A DNA stretch of 64,000 bases, taken from the NCBI RefSeq assembly GCF_024362525.1, contig NZ_CP101459.1, positions 1-64,000 of the forward strand, given 5' to 3'. The translations under genes were made by a program, and so were the position numbers. The stretch's first letter is position 1. Every line of letters begins with the position of its first letter. Shown here one piece after another: positions 38,819-47,708 of the stretch. Origin of the DNA: Natrononativus amylolyticus (GTDB taxonomy: Archaea > Halobacteriota > Halobacteria > Halobacteriales > Natrialbaceae). The notes under the pieces were generated by a model that worked only from the letters and a program-made list of their open reading frames with translations, made no database searches and was not told where the DNA came from.

Positions 38819-39088
38819 CTACGGCGAACACCCACCGCTGGCCGCAGGGATCACGCGGATCTGGGAGTCCTCTTCGACCGGTTCGTCGAGATCGGCCACC
38901 TCGGTGCCGTCGACGTAGACGTTGATGAACTCCTTGATTTCGCCGTCCTCGAGCACGCTGTTCTTGAGCGAGTCGCCGTGTTCGGCGGCGTGGTTGTCGA
39001 ACGCCTCGGCCAGCGTCTCGCCGTCGACGTCGACGCTCGCGGACGAGCCGCCGCCGGTCAGCACGGCTGGCACTTTGATCTGGGGCAT
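38819..39088 (-). CDS. Ubiquitin-like small archaeal modifier / sulfur carrier (MoaD/ThiS/CysO family) with C-terminal cap
   Basis: An 89-residue beta-grasp protein. [39 protein letters not shown] and [13 protein letters not shown] are typical of MoaD/SAMP/CysO proteins, whose C-terminal GG is adenylated, then thiolated or conjugated. Here the GG (85-86) is followed by CSP, so the protein must be trimmed before activation. Known capped carriers such as QbsE of quinolobactin synthesis (ending GGCF) are trimmed by a JAMM protease, and a JAMM gene lies 1 kb away. The E1-like gene is divergent at 39215. This links carrier, activator and protease in one island. Confidence 0.9.
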
Positions 39089-39214: not shown

Positions 39215-40069
39215 ATGAGCGACCTCGACCTCTCGCCGACGCAACTCGACCGCTACTCGAGACACATCATCATGGACACCGTCGGGCCCGGCGGCCAGCG
39301 CGACCTGCTGGACGCCCGCGTGCTCGTCCTGGGTGCGGGCGGGCTCGGTTCGCCGATCATCCAGTACCTCGCGGCGGCCGGCGTCGGGACGCTCGGGATC
39401 GCCGACGACGACGAAGTCGAGCTGTCGAACCTCCAGCGCCAGGTCATCCACGGCGACGACGACGTCGGCCGAAAGAAAGTCGACAGCGCCGCGGAGTACG
39501 TCGACCAGCTCAACCCCGACATCACCGTCGAGCGCCACGAACTCCGGGTCGGCCCGGACACCATCGAGGACCTGATCGACGACTACGACTTCGTGATCGA
39601 CGGCACCGACAACTTCGAGACGCGCTATCTCGTCAACGACGCCTGCACCCTCGCCGGCGTGCCGTTCTCCCACGGCTCGATCTTCCGGTTCGAAGGCCAG
39701 ATCACCACGTTCGCCGGCGGCGCGGACTCGCCGTGTTACCGGTGTATGTTCCCCGAAGCGCCGCCGGCCGGCATGGTGCCCAACTGTGCGACCGCGGGCG
39801 TCCTCGGCGTGCTCCCCGGGACCGTCGGCTGCATCCAGGCCACCGAGGCCGTGAAGTACCTGCTCGAGGCGGGCGACCTCCTCGACGGACGGATGGTGTT
39901 CTACGACGCCCTCGAGATGGAGTTCGACACCGTCGAGATCACCAAAAAGGACGACTGCCCCGTCTGCGGGGACGACCCCGCGATCGACTCGGTGCACGAC
40001 GTCGAGTACACCGCCTCGTGTGCGATCGACGGGACGGCCGAGGAGCCCGAAATCGAAGCGAGCGACTGA
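39215..40069 (+). CDS. ubaA: E1-like adenylyltransferase (UbaA/MoeB/ThiF family)
   Basis: A 284-residue protein. The nucleotide-binding loop is LGAGGLGSPI at about 39-48, and the acidic motif IADDDEVELSNLQRQ follows (about 62-76). Catalytic Cys191 is in PNCATAGVLG. Zinc cysteines are in CYRC (174/177) and CPVC (248/251). Family members adenylate the C-terminal glycine of ubiquitin-like carriers, after which sulfur is transferred from a rhodanese or persulfide. No C-terminal rhodanese domain is fused, unlike MoeZ, but separate rhodanese and TusA genes are nearby. It would activate the trimmed carrier. Symbol by family only; a core UbaA elsewhere in the genome cannot be excluded. Confidence 0.93.
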   Translation: MSDLDLSPTQLDRYSRHIIMDTVGPGGQRDLLDARVLVLGAGGLGSPIIQYLAAAGVGTLGIADDDEVELSNLQRQVIHGDDDVGRKKVDSAAEYVDQLNPDITVERHELRVGPDTIEDLIDDYDFVIDGTDNFETRYLVNDACTLAGVPFSHGSIFRFEGQITTFAGGADSPCYRCMFPEAPPAGMVPNCATAGVLGVLPGTVGCIQATEAVKYLLEAGDLLDGRMVFYDALEMEFDTVEITKKDDCPVCGDDPAIDSVHDVEYTASCAIDGTAEEPEIEASD

Positions 40070-40084: not shown

Positions 40085-40537
40085 TCAGCGCCCCTCTCGC
40101 GCCGGCGCCTCGAGGGCCGAATCGGCGGCGACCCGAACCAGTTCCTGCTCGAACGTCGCCTCGTCGGCCCGCCAGCGCCACGAGCCGACGTAGGGGTAGC
40201 CGTCGAGTGCAACGATGACGTAGGAGAGGTCCGGCCACGTGGCCCGCGCCGCGTCCGTCTCGCTCGGGTGGGTCGGGCCGGCGGGGTGGGAGTGATAGAA
40301 GCCGGCGACCTCGAGCCCCTCGTCCTCGATCGTTTCGGTGATATCGAACTGCTCCTCGGGATCGATCGAATACCGCACCGCCGGCGTGTCCGCGACGTTG
40401 TCGGCCGGGTAGACGTCCGTGACGACGGTGCGGTCGTCGGCGTATGCGCCCGCGAGAACGCCGCAGATTTCCCGGTCGGCGCCGCCGTAGCCTTCGTACA
40501 CGACCTCGTCGTAGGCCGAACGCGAAAAGACGATCAT
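40085..40537 (-). CDS. JAMM/MPN+ metalloprotease
   Basis: A 150-residue single-domain protein with a complete JAMM zinc motif: Glu23 in DREICGVLAG and the loop HSHPAGPTHPSETD (H82, H84, S92, D95). Archaeal JAMM proteins remove ubiquitin-like modifiers; bacterial ones such as Mec and QbsD act on sulfur carriers. Mec releases cysteine from CysO, and QbsD trims the C-terminal cap of its carrier. The start at 40537 is chosen because upstream codons look random. In this island it probably either trims the GGCSP end or hydrolyses carrier conjugates. Confidence 0.93.
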   Translation of the reverse strand: MIVFSRSAYDEVVYEGYGGADREICGVLAGAYADDRTVVTDVYPADNVADTPAVRYSIDPEEQFDITETIEDEGLEVAGFYHSHPAGPTHPSETDAARATWPDLSYVIVALDGYPYVGSWRWRADEATFEQELVRVAADSALEAPAREGR

Positions 40538-40631
40538 GGCTCCTCGTGGGTCCCTCACGACCTTAAGTCCCGCAGCAGCGGCGCATTCGACCGGAAGCGG
40601 ACGCCGCCCGCATCGTCCGCTACCCGGCGAT

Positions 40632-41000
40632 TTAGAGGGTGATAACCTGATCCGGCGGGTTCGTCTCGAGTGCTGCATACAGGTCCGGGAAGCAGCCGAC
40701 CCTCACGCCGTCGACGACGTTCCGGGGGGCGTAGCCGCCGTCGTCGGTTTCGACCGCGAGGCCGCGTTCGGTGGCGCACAGATCGCACAGCATGAGCAGG
40801 ATGTTCTGTTCGGCGGCGAGCGCGGAAAGCCGTTCTCCGAGGTCGCTTCCCGCCTGCAGGGCGTAGGTGTTATCGTCGAAAAAGAACATCCCGGCCACGT
40901 CCGCCCCGTGGTCTCCCGCCTCGAGTTGGGGGAGGATCATCCGCTCGAGTTTGTGCGAGACCGTGTGCCCCGTCGTGCTGAACACGTATGCGACGCGCAT
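40632..41000 (-). CDS. DsrE/DsrF-like small sulfur-relay protein
   Basis: A 122-residue protein of the DsrE fold: strand and helix 1 as MRVAYVFSTTGHTVSHKLER, middle FFDDNTYALQAG, and a cysteine pair CDLC at 72-75. The DsrE/TusD/Mth1491 family binds sulfur on a conserved cysteine in sulfur-relay complexes. The CxxC placement in the helix after strand 3 matches this role. It is a single gene between the JAMM gene and the propeller operon, with gaps of about 95 and 124 bases. Likely carrier between rhodanese/TusA and the next acceptor. Confidence 0.8.
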   Translation of the reverse strand: MRVAYVFSTTGHTVSHKLERMILPQLEAGDHGADVAGMFFFDDNTYALQAGSDLGERLSALAAEQNILLMLCDLCATERGLAVETDDGGYAPRNVVDGVRVGCFPDLYAALETNPPDQVITL

Positions 41001-41123: not shown

Positions 41124-42092
41124 CTAGACGATCACGGCACCGAACGGGTTCGCCGGCGTGTCGCACGTCCAGACGACGCGACCCGCTGTCGCGTCGACGA
41201 GACTGACGGCAGCGTCGTCGTAGTGAGAGAGCACGTAGCGATCGTCGCCGGCCGGCGTGGCGACGATCGACGGGTGTGGCACGTCGATCCCGTCGCCCGC
41301 GAGCGAGCGAAACCGGGGGCGGGTCCGATCGACGACCCACCGGCGTCTGCCCACCACGTCGGTCGGGCGACCCCCGACGTCGTGGACGGCAGCGACCTCG
41401 AGGGCGGCCGTCAGCTCGTGTACCGTCCCGTCCCCTCGCCCGGGGACGCAGAGACGGCCGTCGAGAATCGACAGGTCGTACGGATCGGCGCCGACCGTCG
41501 CCGCCGCCGCCGGAGCCGCCGGAAGCGACTGGTCCGGCCCGCCGACGTCGAACCGGACGATCGACGCGTTTCGCTGGTCGACGGCGTAGACGAGCGTCCG
41601 CTCACCGTCTTCGACCGCGGCGACGCCCTGGACGCGTGCGTCCCCCGCGAGCGCGAGTCGTCCCCGGACCGACCCGGTTGCGGCGTCGAACACCGTCACG
41701 GAGCCGTCCCGGCGACTGCCGACGAAGCCGGTTCCCGCGCACACGTCGATCTCGTGTGGCTCGGCACCGACCGGGATGCGGCTCTCGAGCGCGGTGACGG
41801 CTCGATCGAACACCGCGACGACGTCGCCCGCGGTACACGGGACGAAGACGCGCTCGCCGCTGGCGGCGAAATGCGATGGCCCGAGGACGCCGGTCTCGAC
41901 GGTCCGAACCGAGCCGTCGGTGTCGACGACGGTCACGGCGCGCTCGCCCATCGTCGCGACCAGCACCCGGCCGTCGACGACGTGGGCGTGGACGGGGTCG
42001 CGCCCGACGGGGATCGTGCCCCGGTCGGCGCCCGTCTCGACGTCGACCAGCGCGAGCGCGTCCGCCCCCTGACAGCAGATCGCGGCGAGCAT
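41124..42092 (-). CDS. Beta-propeller protein (YncE/YVTN-like)
   Basis: A 322-residue protein made of repeated blades: VVDTDGSVRTVETGV, VAVFDRAVTALESRIPVGAE, VTVFDAATGSVRGRLALAGD, ADPYDLSILDGRLCVPG. Such proteins are usually scaffolds or ligand binders. No signal peptide is visible, so it may be cytoplasmic, unlike the larger propeller at 43125. It ends the leftward operon with a TGATG overlap with the rhodanese gene. Cysteines near the N-terminus (AAICCQG) are notable. The role is inferred from its fixed place in the sulfur island. Confidence 0.8.
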   Translation of the reverse strand: MLAAICCQGADALALVDVETGADRGTIPVGRDPVHAHVVDGRVLVATMGERAVTVVDTDGSVRTVETGVLGPSHFAASGERVFVPCTAGDVVAVFDRAVTALESRIPVGAEPHEIDVCAGTGFVGSRRDGSVTVFDAATGSVRGRLALAGDARVQGVAAVEDGERTLVYAVDQRNASIVRFDVGGPDQSLPAAPAAAATVGADPYDLSILDGRLCVPGRGDGTVHELTAALEVAAVHDVGGRPTDVVGRRRWVVDRTRPRFRSLAGDGIDVPHPSIVATPAGDDRYVLSHYDDAAVSLVDATAGRVVWTCDTPANPFGAVIV

Positions 42093-43135
42093 CAGCCGGT
42101 ACAGGAGAAGTCGCCGCCGTCCTCTCCGCCGAGGTCGCCGTCCGTCTCGATGACGACGTTCGTCTTCGTCTCGACGGGGTACCCGCCGCGGTCGTCCTCG
42201 GGCACGTTCGCCCACTCCGTAAAGCCGCCCTCGTAGAGGCGAACGTCCTCGAAGCCGAGCGCGCGGAGCACGGCCCAGGTCTGGGTCGGATCGACGTTGT
42301 CGTCGCCGTAGACGACGACGGTCTCCTCTTCCTCGAGGCCGGCTTCCGCGAAGAACAGGCGGGCGAGTCGCGTCGGCTCCTGCAGCCGGGTCCCGCTGAC
42401 GTTGCCGAGCCAGTGAACGTTGATCGCCCCCGGCAGGTGGCCGTGGCGCTGGTGATCCGGATCGAGCGCGTCGGAGCCCGCTGCGCCGAGGTACGCCTCC
42501 GGGACGCGGACGTCGACGAGCGAGTCCGGCGCGTCCTCGCCGAACCGGTCGGCCTCGTCCGCCAGCCACCGCCGGGTCGCCACGAGGTCGTCCACCGGGT
42601 CGGCCTCGTACTCGGTCGCCTCGGGTTCGTCAGGGGTTCCCGTGCCGATTCGACCGGTCCAGGCGTCGACGCCGCCGTTCAGGATACGAACGTCACCGCG
42701 GTGACCGAGGTACGCCAGCGCGAACGCGACGCGGGTCACTCGCGAGCCGACGCTGTTGCCGTAGACAAGCACGTCGTCGTCGGGGGCGACTCCGATACCG
42801 GCAAACCCTGCGGCTATCTCGGACGGGTCCGGCTCGAGTCCACCGTCGCCGTCCCGTCGCGTGGTGAGCGCCTCGAGGGCGACGTGACGCGCCCCGTGGA
42901 TCCGCTCGCGGCGGAAGGCGTCGCGCTCGCGGGCGTCGATGACGGCGATCTCGTCGCGGTCGCGGTCTGTGAGCCACGACGGGCCGACGAACGTCCGGAC
43001 GTTGCCGCGAACCTCGCTGCGCACGCTCGTATCCGCCGGCGTCGTCACGGCGGTACAGCCGGCGGTGCCCGCGACGGCCGTGCCGGCGGCCGCCTGCAAG
43101 AGCGCCCGCCGGGTCGCGTTCGGTTCATCTGTCAT
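42092..43135 (-). CDS. Tat lipoprotein with two rhodanese domains lacking active-site cysteines
   Basis: A 347-residue protein. Tat signal with RR at 9-10, and a lipobox with acceptor Cys27 (AGTAGC). The first rhodanese domain is at about 60-165 (EIAVIDARERDAFRRERIHG), the second at about 195-320 (PDSLVDVRVPEAYLG, GHLPGAINVHWLGN). The site that normally holds the catalytic cysteine reads LVYGNSVGS in the first and VVYGDDNVDP in the second, so neither has one. The C-terminus ends DFSCTG with a single cysteine. It probably binds rather than transfers sulfur, or uses the C-terminal cysteine. It overlaps both neighbours. Confidence 0.85.
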   Translation of the reverse strand: MTDEPNATRRALLQAAAGTAVAGTAGCTAVTTPADTSVRSEVRGNVRTFVGPSWLTDRDRDEIAVIDARERDAFRRERIHGARHVALEALTTRRDGDGGLEPDPSEIAAGFAGIGVAPDDDVLVYGNSVGSRVTRVAFALAYLGHRGDVRILNGGVDAWTGRIGTGTPDEPEATEYEADPVDDLVATRRWLADEADRFGEDAPDSLVDVRVPEAYLGAAGSDALDPDHQRHGHLPGAINVHWLGNVSGTRLQEPTRLARLFFAEAGLEEEETVVVYGDDNVDPTQTWAVLRALGFEDVRLYEGGFTEWANVPEDDRGGYPVETKTNVVIETDGDLGGEDGGDFSCTG

Positions 43136-44465
43136 CGCTTCTCACTCCTTCCTCGCTGTGATAGCCGCAGTAGCAGTACTGCTCGGGGCAGTACGCCAGT
43201 TCCTGGTCGCCGACCGAGACGCCGAGGGAGGCGATGGCCCCCTGGAGACGCTGGGTGGTACTGGTGTCCGGGCGGACCATTCCGCCGACGGCGCCGGTCG
43301 GCGACTCGCCCGCCTCGACGGTTGCGACCACCTCGCGCTGGGCGTGGTCGATGACGGCGACCTGGTTCGCGGTCTGGACGGGGACGTACAGCTTCTCGCG
43401 GTTCGGCCCCCACGCGCCGGCGATCGCGGTGCCGCCGATGTCGAGTTCCTGGTCGACCGCCTGGTCTGCGAGGTCGATCACCGTCACGCTCTCGCTTTCG
43501 GGCGTAAACAGATACGCCGCCTCGTTGTTCGGGTCGATCTCGCTGGTAATCGGCGGCGCCGGCAGCCCGTCATCGCGCGTGATGCGCTCGATCTCTTCGG
43601 GGTTCTCGGGATCGGAGATGTCCCAGATGCTCTCCGACCCTTCCCGCTCGATGTCCGGCTCGTGGCCGAGTCCTCCCTCGCCGTTTTCGACCAACAGGAG
43701 GTCGCCGTCGAACGTCGCGGTACACATGAACGGCAGGACGTCGCCGTCGCCCGCGGGGTCGCCGACGTCGATCTGGGCGGCGATCTCGAACGGATCGACG
43801 CGGATCACGGTCAGCGTCTCGTTGGCCACGTCCGAGACGAACGCGTACTCGCTGTCGGGGCCGAGCGTCATGTCGCACGGCCCGGTGTACCCCACCTCGA
43901 GTTCGCCCGTCACGTCCCCGAAGCCGTCGCTGTCGGGGTCGGCGTCGACCCGAAAGAGCATGTGGTCCTCGGGTTCGGGCGGGTCGGGCTCCATCGACGT
44001 CGTCCCGCCGGCGGCGACGATGAGGTGTTGCTCGTCGGGCGTCACGTTGGGATAGTTCGGGCCGAACCCGGTTTCGACGTGGGCGACCTCCTCGAGCGTC
44101 CGCTGGTCGAACCCCCTGACGCCGCCGCTGACGTTGAGCCAGAGCACGTCGTGTTCCGACTCCGCCCCGGTGCCGTACTGGTTGGCCGGAAACGACGCGG
44201 TCGTCCCCAGAAAGACGCTCTCGATGAGTTCGTCGGTTTCGGCGTCGATGACGCTCACCGTCCGGTCACCGTTGTTGAAGACGTACATCGTCGGGGCGCG
44301 TTCGTCGTCGTCGCTCAGACAGCCCGACAGCGTCGCGGTCGTGCCGACGACCGCCGACGACTGTAACACCCGTCGGCGGTCGATCCCCCGGCCGAACGGG
44401 TTCTTTCGATCCGGGTTCGCCTGGAGCCCATCGTCCGCCCCCGTCGCGTCCCGCCGCTGGTTCAT
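43125..44465 (-). CDS. Tat lipoprotein beta-propeller with cysteine-rich C-terminus
   Basis: A 446-residue protein. Tat motif RRR at 30-32 and lipobox Cys49 (TATLSGC) anchor it to the membrane. Propeller repeats follow (MYVFNNGDRTVSVIDAETDE, ITSEIDPNNEAAYLFTPESE, VPVQTANQVAVIDHAQREVV). The C-terminus reads ELAYCPEQYCYCGYHSEEG, three cysteines in six residues that could bind metal or a persulfide. First gene of a three-gene operon, overlapping the next by 11 bases and divergent from the transporter by 155 bases. It probably works outside the cell with the rhodanese-like lipoprotein. Confidence 0.85.
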   Translation of the reverse strand: MNQRRDATGADDGLQANPDRKNPFGRGIDRRRVLQSSAVVGTTATLSGCLSDDDERAPTMYVFNNGDRTVSVIDAETDELIESVFLGTTASFPANQYGTGAESEHDVLWLNVSGGVRGFDQRTLEEVAHVETGFGPNYPNVTPDEQHLIVAAGGTTSMEPDPPEPEDHMLFRVDADPDSDGFGDVTGELEVGYTGPCDMTLGPDSEYAFVSDVANETLTVIRVDPFEIAAQIDVGDPAGDGDVLPFMCTATFDGDLLLVENGEGGLGHEPDIEREGSESIWDISDPENPEEIERITRDDGLPAPPITSEIDPNNEAAYLFTPESESVTVIDLADQAVDQELDIGGTAIAGAWGPNREKLYVPVQTANQVAVIDHAQREVVATVEAGESPTGAVGGMVRPDTSTTQRLQGAIASLGVSVGDQELAYCPEQYCYCGYHSEEGVRSDDR

Positions 44466-44620
44466 GTTCCCCCCTCGGACGCGAGACCGTAAAGGACATT
44501 GGGAGCGCCCCTCCTTTGCCGTCGACCCACTTTCGAGGCAATACTTACAGCTACCGCGGGACCCTGGCGAGTCGTTCCGTCATCCGTGCGCTAAAGAACG
44601 CCGAGTGGAGAGTACTGGTC

Positions 44621-45826
44621 ATGTCGCTCTCGCCCACAGCGTATCTCGCCGTCTCCCTCTTCGTCGGGCTGTCGTTCGGGGTGTTCCTCCAGAAGGCGCG
44701 CTTCTGTTTCGTCAGCGCCTTTCGCGACTTCGTCGCGTTCAAAGACACGCGCGTGCTCAAGGGCGTTCTCGCCGGCGTCTTCGTGATGACGCTGTTCTGG
44801 AGCGCACAGATGGCGACCGGCTACTTCCGCGGGTTCTGGACACCCGCGTGGGGGATCGGCTCGTTCATCGGCGGCTTCGTTTTCGGGCTCGGGATGACGA
44901 TGGCCGGCGGCTGTGCCAGTGGCACGCTGTATCGCGCCGGGCAGGGCTACGTCCAGTTCTGGATCACGCTGCTGTTCATGGGCGTCGGCTACGTGATCTT
45001 CGCGCTGTTCTTTTCGACCTTCCGCGCGTATTACTTCGAACCGCTCAACCCCGCCCCGGGGACGTCGCTCTACCTCGCGTTCCCCTGGTCGCCGGCGATC
45101 ACCGGCGCCGCGTTCGTCGCGGTCGGCGTGCTGGCGTACGCGTTCGTCGTGGGACGAACCCAGCTCCCGGACGAGCCGGCGGGACCCTCGTCCACCACGA
45201 CCGGCGAGCGGGCCCAATTGACCGTCGCCGCCCGCCCCGTCCGGGCTGTGACGGCCGGCCTCGTCTCGCTCGTCGCCGGGATCCGGCAGTACCTCCGTAG
45301 TTTCGCGACCGACGACCGCCCGGTGGCGGCCCGCCTCAAGGGAACGTGGGACGCTCGCACCGCCGGCATCGGGATGGCCCTGGTCGCGAGCCTCTGGTTC
45401 TGGGTTCACGGCCACTGGGCGATCACCGGCAGCGAGGCCCGCTGGGCCGGCTACCTGCTCGGCGGTGCGGGCGTCGACGTACAGAGCATCGAGTACTGGG
45501 GCTCCGTGCTGTTTCACGAGGGCGACATCACGATCACCATCGATATGCTGATGATCGCCTCGCTGGTCGTCGGCTCGTTCCTCGCGGCGTGGTTCTCGGG
45601 TGACTTCCGCCTGCGGATGCCCAAGTTGAACCGGCTGCACAACCCGATCGTCGGGGGGCTGCTGATGGGGTTCGGCTCGAGGCTCGCCGCCGGCTGTAAC
45701 ATCGCGAACCTCTTTTCCGGGGTCGCGCTGCTCTCGGTGCACTCGTTTCTCGCCGGAGCCGGCATCATCGTCGGCGTGTACGTGATGACCCGCTGGCTGT
45801 ACCGCGAAGTCGGCTGTGCGCTCTAG
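44621..45826 (+). CDS. YeeE/YedE (TsuA-type) thiosulfate transporter
   Basis: A 401-residue membrane protein with about nine helices. It carries the three family cysteines in conserved settings: Cys29 in KARFCF, Cys98 in AGGCASGTLYR, Cys359 in AGCNIANLFSG. Bacterial TsuA imports thiosulfate through these cysteines, and partners such as the TusA-family YeeD process it. TusA and rhodanese genes follow directly on the opposite strand. The start at 44621 gives an N-terminal helix; upstream in-frame codons to 44516 look random. Thiosulfate uptake feeding the sulfur island is the likely job; selenium transport by related YedE proteins is an alternative. Confidence 0.93.
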   Translation: MSLSPTAYLAVSLFVGLSFGVFLQKARFCFVSAFRDFVAFKDTRVLKGVLAGVFVMTLFWSAQMATGYFRGFWTPAWGIGSFIGGFVFGLGMTMAGGCASGTLYRAGQGYVQFWITLLFMGVGYVIFALFFSTFRAYYFEPLNPAPGTSLYLAFPWSPAITGAAFVAVGVLAYAFVVGRTQLPDEPAGPSSTTTGERAQLTVAARPVRAVTAGLVSLVAGIRQYLRSFATDDRPVAARLKGTWDARTAGIGMALVASLWFWVHGHWAITGSEARWAGYLLGGAGVDVQSIEYWGSVLFHEGDITITIDMLMIASLVVGSFLAAWFSGDFRLRMPKLNRLHNPIVGGLLMGFGSRLAAGCNIANLFSGVALLSVHSFLAGAGIIVGVYVMTRWLYREVGCAL

Positions 45827-45893
45827 CACGCAGTCGAAAACGGAAGATCGCTACAGAGCGCTCGAGCGCCCGGCCATTGGGGCCGTCCGAAGC

Positions 45894-46232
45894 TTACAGC
45901 TCCGCCGCACCCTCGCCGTCGGCCGTCTCGAGGTCGTACTCCCACGCCTCGTAGCCGCCCTGCATGCTCGTCACGGCGTCTGCCTCGGCGCCCTCGAAGC
46001 TGCCGATGAGCCGCGCCGCCTGGATCGAACTCTGCCCGATCGGGCAGGCGACGACGACGTCGTCGCCCCAGTCGTACTCGTCGATTCTGGCGGGGAGTTC
46101 GGTCATCGGAATGTTGATCGCGCCGGGGATGTGACCCTGTGCGAACGCCTCCGGCTGGCGGATGTCGACGATCTGGACGTCGTCGTCGTCGAGCTTTCGG
46201 TTGACGTCTTCGGGGGTGACTTCGTCGACCAT
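45894..46232 (-). CDS. Single-domain rhodanese with active-site cysteine
   Basis: A 112-residue protein. Family blocks VQIVDIRQPEAF, GHIPGAINIPM and the active-site loop VACPIGQSS with Cys63 are present, so it should form a persulfide from thiosulfate. It ends MQGGYEAWEYD and an acidic tail. It is three bases downstream of the TusA gene, an obvious operon, and convergent with the transporter gene. It likely transfers thiosulfate sulfur to TusA, DsrE or the E1-carrier complex. Confidence 0.93.
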   Translation of the reverse strand: MVDEVTPEDVNRKLDDDDVQIVDIRQPEAFAQGHIPGAINIPMTELPARIDEYDWGDDVVVACPIGQSSIQAARLIGSFEGAEADAVTSMQGGYEAWEYDLETADGEGAAEL

Positions 46233-46234
46233 CG

Positions 46235-46534
46235 TTACTTGCGCGAGAGGAAGATGCGATACCGACCGTCCCCGCTCTTCCAGACCTTCGCATCCGCGAG
46301 CTCCGAGACCGCCTTCGGAACGTTCTCCGTACTCGGGACGTGGTCGGTCTCCTGGACGAGTACGTCGCCCGCCTCGAGGCCCTGCATGGCTTTCTTGGCC
46401 TCGACCTGCGGGTAGGGACAGACCTCGCCGGTCATGTCCTGTACCTCGTCTGCCCCCTCGTACAGCTGTTCGGCCGTGTCGTCGTCGAGTTCGTCGGGGA
46501 GGTCGACGACGTCGTCCCAGCTTGCGTTACTCAT
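46235..46534 (-). CDS. TusA-family sulfur carrier
   Basis: A 99-residue protein with the CPxP motif CPYPQ at 39-43 (GEVCPYPQVEAKKAMQGLEA) on the first helix, and a short second half ending ADAKVWKSGDGRYRIF. TusA proteins carry a persulfide on this cysteine and pass it along. The YeeD protein, also TusA-type, works with the YeeE transporter in bacteria, and here the two genes are about 400 bases apart. First gene of the TusA-rhodanese operon. An acidic N-terminal 30-residue extension is typical of halophiles. Confidence 0.93.
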   Translation of the reverse strand: MSNASWDDVVDLPDELDDDTAEQLYEGADEVQDMTGEVCPYPQVEAKKAMQGLEAGDVLVQETDHVPSTENVPKAVSELADAKVWKSGDGRYRIFLSRK

Positions 46535-46685
46535 GTGGTAGTCGTATTGGACTCGGTCAGTTAACGGCTTTCGGTCGGGTCAGAAGCTTCCCGTATCTCG
46601 GACGGTCAGCGCCGCGTGCGACCGACGTGGTGGCCGTATCGGCCGTTTCCATCAGACCCATATTCGATCGGTGGCTACGGGTGGT

Positions 46686-47708
46686 ATGACCGATGAGGCG
46701 TCGTCTCCCGTCTACGACGAGTCGACGATCTTCGAGACACCGTTGCTCGAGTTAGACGTCGACGTACCCGGGACGGTGTACGGCAAAGCGGAGTGGTACA
46801 ACCTCTATTCGGCACCCCACGGCGGCGGCTCCGTCAAGTCCCGTATCGCGAAGGGAATGCTCGACGGCGCCGAACGGCGGGGCGACCTCGAACCGGACGC
46901 GACGATCATCGAACCGACCTCGGGGAACACCGGCAGCGAACTCGCCCGTCTCGCGACGGCCAGGGGATACGACGTCGAAATCGTGCTGCCGGATAACGCC
47001 AGCGGCGGAAAGATCGACGCGATTCGCGACGCCGGCGCGACGCTTCACTTCGTCGACGCCGATCGCGGCTACGACGCCGTCATCGATCGGTGCGAGGAGC
47101 GTATCGCAGCGGACCCCGACGGGTACTATCGGCCGAACCAGTACGAGAACCCCGACAATCCCGGCACCCACGAACGGACGACCGCCGCCGAACTGTACGA
47201 GCAGACCGACGGCGAGATCACCCACTTCGTCGCGGGTGCCGGCACCGGTGGCACCGTCACGGGGACCGGTCGCGGCCTTCACGACCGGGGCGACGTCACG
47301 GTCGTCGGCTTCGAACCGGCCGAAGCGCTACACGCCATCGACGGGCTGAAGTACCTCAAAACCGGCGATCACTACCACCCCGAGACGTACGACGAGTCGG
47401 TGCTCGACCACAAGGAGTACGTCTCCACACAGCGCGCGTACGATCGCGCTCGAGCGCTCCGTAACCGGTACCAGGACACCGACATTCGGGTCCACGACAC
47501 CGGCCAACACGACCGCAAGACCGTTACCGACCACCTCCGTGTCGATGGACAGTTCGTCGTCGGCACCTCGAGCGGGGCGGGCATCCAGGCCGTCCACCAA
47601 CTCGCCGATGCGGGTGCGCTCGACGAGACCTCCGTAATCGCCGTTATGCTCTACGACCGTGGCGATAAGTACGCTGACATCCCTCTCTGGGAGTCGTACC
47701 TGAGTTGA
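46686..47708 (+). CDS. PLP-dependent cysteine synthase-like enzyme
   Basis: A 340-residue fold-type II PLP enzyme: PLP lysine K51 in GGGSVKSRIAKG, the substrate loop PTSGNTGSE at 78-86, the phosphate-binding AGAGTGGTVTGTG, and GTSSGAGIQAVHQ near the C-terminus. It is cysteine synthase (CysK/CysM) like but with the variant GGGSVKSR in place of the usual PxGSxKDR. In Mycobacterium, CysM uses O-phosphoserine and the CysO thiocarboxylate as sulfur donor. The present gene is divergent from TusA and part of the island, so a carrier-linked donor is plausible. Start at 46686 (MTDEASS); 46671 adds five residues. Confidence 0.9.
   Translation: MTDEASSPVYDESTIFETPLLELDVDVPGTVYGKAEWYNLYSAPHGGGSVKSRIAKGMLDGAERRGDLEPDATIIEPTSGNTGSELARLATARGYDVEIVLPDNASGGKIDAIRDAGATLHFVDADRGYDAVIDRCEERIAADPDGYYRPNQYENPDNPGTHERTTAAELYEQTDGEITHFVAGAGTGGTVTGTGRGLHDRGDVTVVGFEPAEALHAIDGLKYLKTGDHYHPETYDESVLDHKEYVSTQRAYDRARALRNRYQDTDIRVHDTGQHDRKTVTDHLRVDGQFVVGTSSGAGIQAVHQLADAGALDETSVIAVMLYDRGDKYADIPLWESYLS

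Follow-up and report, generated by a model that had tools for sequence, protein, structure and literature searches.

A CysO-like sulfur carrier precursor with residues beyond its diglycine motif, and a neighbouring JAMM protease, in a haloarchaeal gene cluster with a proposed role in cysteine synthesis

Introduction

Since residues that follow the diglycine (GG) of a sulfur carrier must be removed before the glycine carboxylate can be adenylated, a carrier gene of the haloarchaeon Natrononativus amylolyticus that encodes the ending GG-CSP raises the question of what removes this cap and what the matured protein is used for. The gene lies in the stretch of 64,000 nucleotides analysed here (hereafter the window), which belongs to a 768-kb contig, i.e. 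a large secondary replicon separate from the main 2.98-Mb contig (C1). A sequence-only reading of the window had drawn a parallel to the QbsE/QbsD pair of Pseudomonas and proposed that a JAMM protein encoded nearby removes the cap, and that the cap cysteine might act as a redox or sulfur sensor.

Results

The carrier and its orthologues

The translation of 38819-39088 on the reverse strand confirms the reported ending at residues 85-89, as the last codons are GGT GGG TGT TCG CCG TAG (GGCSP-stop). The start codon (ATG at 39088) is backed by all orthologues, each of which begins at the aligned methionine, and a bacterial-type sigma-70 promoter scan gave no match, such promoters not being expected in archaea. 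The product is a beta-grasp protein of the ThiS family (Table 1). In profile comparisons it matches CysO of Amycolatopsis and Mycobacterium tuberculosis (E = 1.1e-9 and 1.3e-4) ahead of SAMP1, and with the SAMP1 model NF041918 it scores 42.3 bits, below the curated cut-off of 60 bits. A Foldseek search with its AlphaFold model returned 4n6e_B (TM 0.82) as the best match, followed by 3dwg_C (TM 0.78) from the CysM-CysO complex 3dwg. The carrier is hence nearest to CysO by profile and by predicted fold. Residues 85-89 are the sole stretch of the predicted structure with a pLDDT below 50, as one would expect of a flexible terminus.

The sequence-only reading had called for a comparison of C-termini, and these were read in homologues from named haloarchaeal genomes, from the same family of archaea and from a class-wide sample. 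All 39 distinct core orthologues carry one to three residues after GG and none ends in bare GG, which rules out a sequencing or frame artefact. The cap is R in 30 sequences and Q in two, while AR, SR, RR, QA, QF, TRA and CSP occur once each. Conservation is strong up to GG; the presence of a cap is conserved but its sequence is not. It should be kept in mind that the R-capped sequences are largely from close relatives, many of them Halorubrum, so that the number of independent cap events is far smaller than 39. SAMP1-type paralogues served as a control: of the 22 found by a family search in the same family of archaea, 21 end in bare GG, the lone capped one (L016) ending GGCCNPN. The earlier statement that most SAMPs end in GG holds for SAMP1 but has to be qualified for SAMP3, where the 30 orthologues read comprise 16 bare ends, eight short caps and six sequences that run on into longer tails.

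Across haloarchaea, SAMP3 ends range from bare GG over short caps to long tails that lead into a second domain (motif REVAYRGISRRLAAHYL), and the genome analysed here encodes a SAMP3-type carrier that has a cap as well (GGASR; C1:1131499-1131783; L001, L184). Another ThiS-like haloarchaeal family (L012, L018, L029 and L036) ends in PAVQGG followed by variable tails (SRSMP, SRK, SQK and a long one).

The gene cluster

The genes surrounding the carrier are listed in Table 1.

Table 1. Features of the carrier gene cluster (window coordinates).
Feature	Position	Strand	Basis
CysO-like sulfur carrier precursor	38819..39088	-	89 aa, ends GG-CSP; translation; Pfam ThiS 28.5 bits
Cap codons C-S-P and stop of the carrier	38819..38830	-	Translation; caps in 39/39 distinct core orthologues
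UbaA-type E1, no rhodanese domain, divergent from carrier	39215..40069	+	NCBIfam UbaA NF047750, 469.4 bits, cut-off 450
JAMM/MPN+ protease, proposed cap remover	40085..40537	-	Prok-JAB; desampylase above cut-off; motif invariant; predicted fold nearest 2kks and 5lda
DsrE/SaoD-like protein	40632..41000	-	NCBIfam NF040913, 178.8 bits, cut-off 152; conserved in cluster
YncE-like beta-propeller protein	41124..42092	-	Weak beta-propeller matches; conserved in cluster; 'YncE family' in H. salinarum pHAR01
Two-domain rhodanese, Tat-lipoprotein-like N-terminus	42092..43135	-	Pfam Rhodanese 111 bits, two stretches; signal read from sequence
Second beta-propeller protein, Tat-like N-terminus	43125..44465	-	Beta-propeller repeat matches; conserved in cluster
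YeeE/YedE (TsuA-like) sulfur transporter, likely thiosulfate	44516..45826	+	Pfam Sulf_transp 187 bits; TsuA models matched below cut-off
Single-domain rhodanese	45894..46232	-	Pfam Rhodanese 74 bits
TusA-family protein, CPYP motif	46235..46534	-	Pfam TusA 45.7 bits
CysK/CysM-type PLP enzyme	46671..47708	+	Pfam PALP 163.7 bits; cysKM model 226.9 bits, below cut-off 344

The gene set recurs among 29 orthologous loci, some of them on short contigs, with an E1 near the carrier in 28, a JAMM gene in 25 and a synthase in 22; no synthase lies near the carrier in the Halobiforma-type loci, in L039-L041 and in genome G148. In the profile models the synthase stays under all cysteine-synthase cut-offs, and the PDB entries closest to it are Rv1077 and E. 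coli CysM, with M. tuberculosis CysM absent among the best 60 listed. Not being specially close to the mycobacterial enzyme, it is a candidate rather than a clear CysO-dependent CysM. An open reading frame at 45823-46293 (reverse strand) was rejected as a gene, since the conservation there is due to TusA and rhodanese, which are read in other frames. The SaoD/DsrE counterpart in Halorubrum sits at the far end of the cluster, unlike in the window.

Within 391 genomes the carrier occurs patchily, namely in 35 (31 with core and four with divergent carriers). Plasmid pHAR01 of Halorubrum salinarum bears the same genes in the public record, where no pathway is named, and a second carrier-bearing plasmid is found in Halolamina. 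Together with the trees described below, the patchy occurrence and the plasmid location suggest horizontal spread of the cluster.

The JAMM protease and the E1

The JAMM gene most likely starts at 40537, as the orthologues begin at an aligned 'MI(E/V)' and the longer reading frame (40085-40678, 197 aa) overlaps the DsrE gene and is too long. The revised protein has 150 residues, and its start lies 997 bp from that of the carrier. Its motif (E23, H82-x-H84-x7-S92-x2-D95) is invariant in 15 aligned relatives, so that the claim of a full-motif JAMM gene 1 kb from the carrier proved correct, the gene being complete. It matches Prok-JAB and exceeds the cut-off of the NCBIfam desampylase model NF041370 (138.2 versus 130 bits), and its predicted structure is closest to 2kks and to JAMM1 of P. 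furiosus with SAMP2 (PfJAMM1-SAMP2, 5lda).

The JAMMs of the cluster group together with good support (99/95) in a clade that takes in the JAMMs of three genomes in which no carrier was found (G130, G147 and G160), and a related JAMM adjoins divergent carriers with bare GG in two genomes (L095, L096). A strict bond between this JAMM and capped carriers is thereby ruled out, and the protein must have work besides cap removal. From comparison with characterized JAMMs, two known jobs would fit, i.e. the removal of SAMPs from proteins or the release of cysteine from the carrier in the manner of Mec+. JAMM-carrier pairs are also present in the small haloarchaeal genomes G142, G286, G337 and G409 (L095, L096, L094 and L093), with the ends GG, GG, GGG and GGTGQ, and the second carriers of these genomes (L097-L100) bear the caps S, C, ST and SR.

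The E1 of the cluster differs from the resident UbaA encoded on C1, to which it is 65% identical: it is a second copy, and the cluster E1s form one separate clade with 100/100 support (in the tree, row CLU_L005 represents the resident copy as taken from a second locus). In the 391-genome sample, a second UbaA-type E1 is present in all 31 core-carrier genomes versus six of the 356 carrier-less ones (Fisher p ~4e-40, for species that are not phylogenetically independent). A genome with two carriers has three UbaA-type E1s, and a single one is present in each of the four divergent-carrier genomes. The genome also encodes a second desampylase-type JAMM on C1, which is 50% identical to that of the window; it and the resident UbaA are convergent neighbours (C1:1303936-1305450), as are the E1 and JAMM genes in the window.

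Discussion

From our point of view, the best explanation, and a reasonably probable one, is that the carrier is a capped CysO-like precursor that is trimmed by the JAMM protein, charged by the dedicated E1 and used for cysteine synthesis. In such a pathway, (i) the JAMM protein encoded 1 kb away would cut after GG and thereby remove CSP; (ii) the cluster's own E1 would adenylate the exposed glycine; (iii) sulfur, probably derived from imported thiosulfate via YeeE/TusA and rhodanese, would yield the thiocarboxylate; (iv) the CysK/CysM-type enzyme would use this thiocarboxylate and attach a serine-derived unit, giving carrier-bound cysteine; and (v) the same JAMM protein would free the cysteine and restore GG, as Mec+ does. 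We infer every reaction of this pathway from the observed cap, the gene content and synteny, the co-occurrence of genes, the intact motifs and the fold, and consider the removal of CSP the most secure of the five steps and the release of cysteine the least. The low synthase scores, the loci with no synthase near the carrier, the JAMM genes beside bare-GG carriers or in genomes with no carrier found, and the second desampylase-type JAMM of the genome speak against it. As YeeE takes up thiosulfate with a TusA-family partner (PMC11073785), the presence of both genes in the cluster fits thiosulfate uptake.

That the neighbouring JAMM protein trims the cap, as the sequence-only reading had proposed, is very probably correct, judging from the universal caps, the JAMM gene in 25 of the 29 loci and archaeal precedents (PMC4443979; PMC6043591). 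Cysteine synthesis further appears more likely as the function of the carrier than a QbsE-like side pathway. It is possible, though doubtful, that the cluster encodes a mobile pathway from thiosulfate to cysteine in haloarchaea, with a single JAMM protein responsible both for maturation of the capped carrier and, at a later step, for the release of cysteine from it. In this strain, the precursor with its GG-Cys end written in the gene would then mimic the natural adduct of carrier and cysteine. If this holds true, the pathway would to our knowledge be the first in archaea shown to make cysteine by way of a protein thiocarboxylate.

Several other explanations have to be weighed. E. coli CysM, which is among the nearest solved structures of the synthase, can use thiosulfate, and one could imagine that the synthase takes thiosulfate or sulfide directly, while the JAMM-trimmed carrier acts chiefly as a protein modifier (SAMP) or supplies sulfur for a different product, e.g. 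in tRNA thiolation. The scores of the JAMM and the E1 above the desampylase and UbaA cut-offs and the loci that lack the synthase speak for this idea, which we nevertheless regard as unlikely, as the carrier misses the SAMP1 cut-off (42 versus 60 bits) and resembles CysO most closely in profile and fold, 22 of 29 loci have an adjacent synthase, and an E1 clade of its own points to a task other than that of the resident SAMP system. It is also improbable that the chromosomal JAMM rather than the neighbouring one trims the carrier. Its position beside the resident UbaA, its 50% identity to the window protein and the promiscuity of which archaeal JAMM1s are capable (PMC6043591) would be compatible with such a role, yet G133, G154 and G148, which have the cluster, show no desampylase-type match other than the cluster JAMM.

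The two remaining explanations concern the cap itself, which may be no more than a precursor tail, or else a neutral remnant. In the latter case, stop codons would drift downstream in a neutral ratchet as soon as a JAMM capable of trimming is present, and the cap would have no role and need removal only because it is present. The sequence-only reading had suggested that the cap may keep the carrier inactive; as a means of regulation this is unsupported. The variable cap sequence would fit simple maturation and such a ratchet equally well, and sporadic caps in SAMP3 (ASR, ASGST, T, A, NR) as well as the varying ends of the divergent JAMM-linked carriers (G and TGQ versus bare) speak in its favour. 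Some constraint is however indicated by the fact that none of the 39 distinct core sequences is bare and that the length is kept at one to three residues, although 30 of the 39 caps are R, mostly in close relatives, which leaves few independent events. Overall, we regard the ratchet as conceivable but the less favoured account, and mechanistically it shares the JAMM trimming with our preferred explanation. A redox or sulfur sensor that gates trimming through the cap cysteine, by comparison, is very improbable. A cysteine directly after GG also occurs in CsUb-pre of Caldiarchaeum (Cys79), in the divergent carrier L098 (GGC) and in the SAMP1-type protein ending GGCCNPN; among the core sequences, however, it is confined to the window carrier (one of 39), the other 38 having R, Q, A, S or T, and the sensor claim is thus unsupported. 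Moreover, the Cys79Gly variant of CsUb-pre was cut faster than the wild type (PMC6043591).

The preferred explanation, a trimmed carrier that serves cysteine synthesis, suggests a way in which certain haloarchaea could derive cysteine from thiosulfate. It further offers a testable model for the division of archaeal ubiquitin-like proteins into those for tagging and those for sulfur delivery, with a carrier/E1/JAMM set alongside the resident SAMP system. While the haloarchaeal cluster with a capped carrier is new, the principle is not, and the cap finding alone is modest, since JAMM trimming of capped archaeal SAMP precursors has been published for Caldiarchaeum (PMC6043591). In that organism, CsSAMP (Csub_C0702) and CsJAMM (Csub_C0703) as well as CsUb-pre and CsRpn11 likewise involve archaeal ubiquitin-like precursors with residues after GG, such as Cys79 of CsUb-pre. 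The SAMP and JAMM genes have consecutive locus tags, and CsJAMM cuts only CsSAMP precursors, its gene number adjoining that of one of them; precursor cleavage was demonstrated there. Caldiarchaeum belongs to another phylum, and a sulfur-pathway context or a dedicated second E1 is not described in the consulted part of that report.

In Haloferax, SAMP1-3, UbaA and HvJAMM1 represent the same protein families, and HvJAMM1 cuts linear SAMP1 fusions after GG; in a SAMP1-MoaE fusion it cuts exactly after the glycine, thereby restoring function in vivo (PMC4443979). The E1 and JAMM of the window-type cluster, by contrast, fall into clades apart from the resident haloarchaeal copies, and Haloferax SAMP1 is uncapped.

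Operons that combine ThiS/MoaD, an E1, a JAB protein and cysteine synthase have been known as a bacterial type since 2006 (Iyer et al., PMC1779556). Type 4c of that survey contains these four, with E1s fused to rhodanese, and type 4e includes SirA/TusA and sulfur transport; the haloarchaeal cluster mixes features of both, and the 4c/4e rows name no haloarchaeon. A survey of archaea from 2010 reported a cysteine-synthase link for E1 and termed the JAB-Ubl linkage rare in archaea (PMC2948915), and among the papers searched none joins archaea, CysO and JAMM.

The parallel to Pseudomonas QbsE/QbsD (thioquinolobactin) is fair inasmuch as a capped carrier is paired with a JAMM protein, the QbsE cap having a cysteine after GG. 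These proteins belong to a siderophore pathway, though, and no such biosynthetic genes were recognised in the window. The closer model is the CysO/CysM/Mec+/MoeZ system of M. tuberculosis, in which the JAMM protein Mec+ frees cysteine from CysO-Cys (PMC3227635). Both share a CysO-near carrier, and the window unites JAMM, E1 and a cysteine-synthase-type gene in one cluster. The mycobacterial CysO (3dwg) ends in bare GG, whereas the window carrier and all its core orthologues are capped; the E1 of the window lacks the fused rhodanese and its synthase is not specially close to mycobacterial CysM. Finally, the haloarchaeal cluster adds a thiosulfate-type transporter, TusA, DsrE and propeller proteins to the set.
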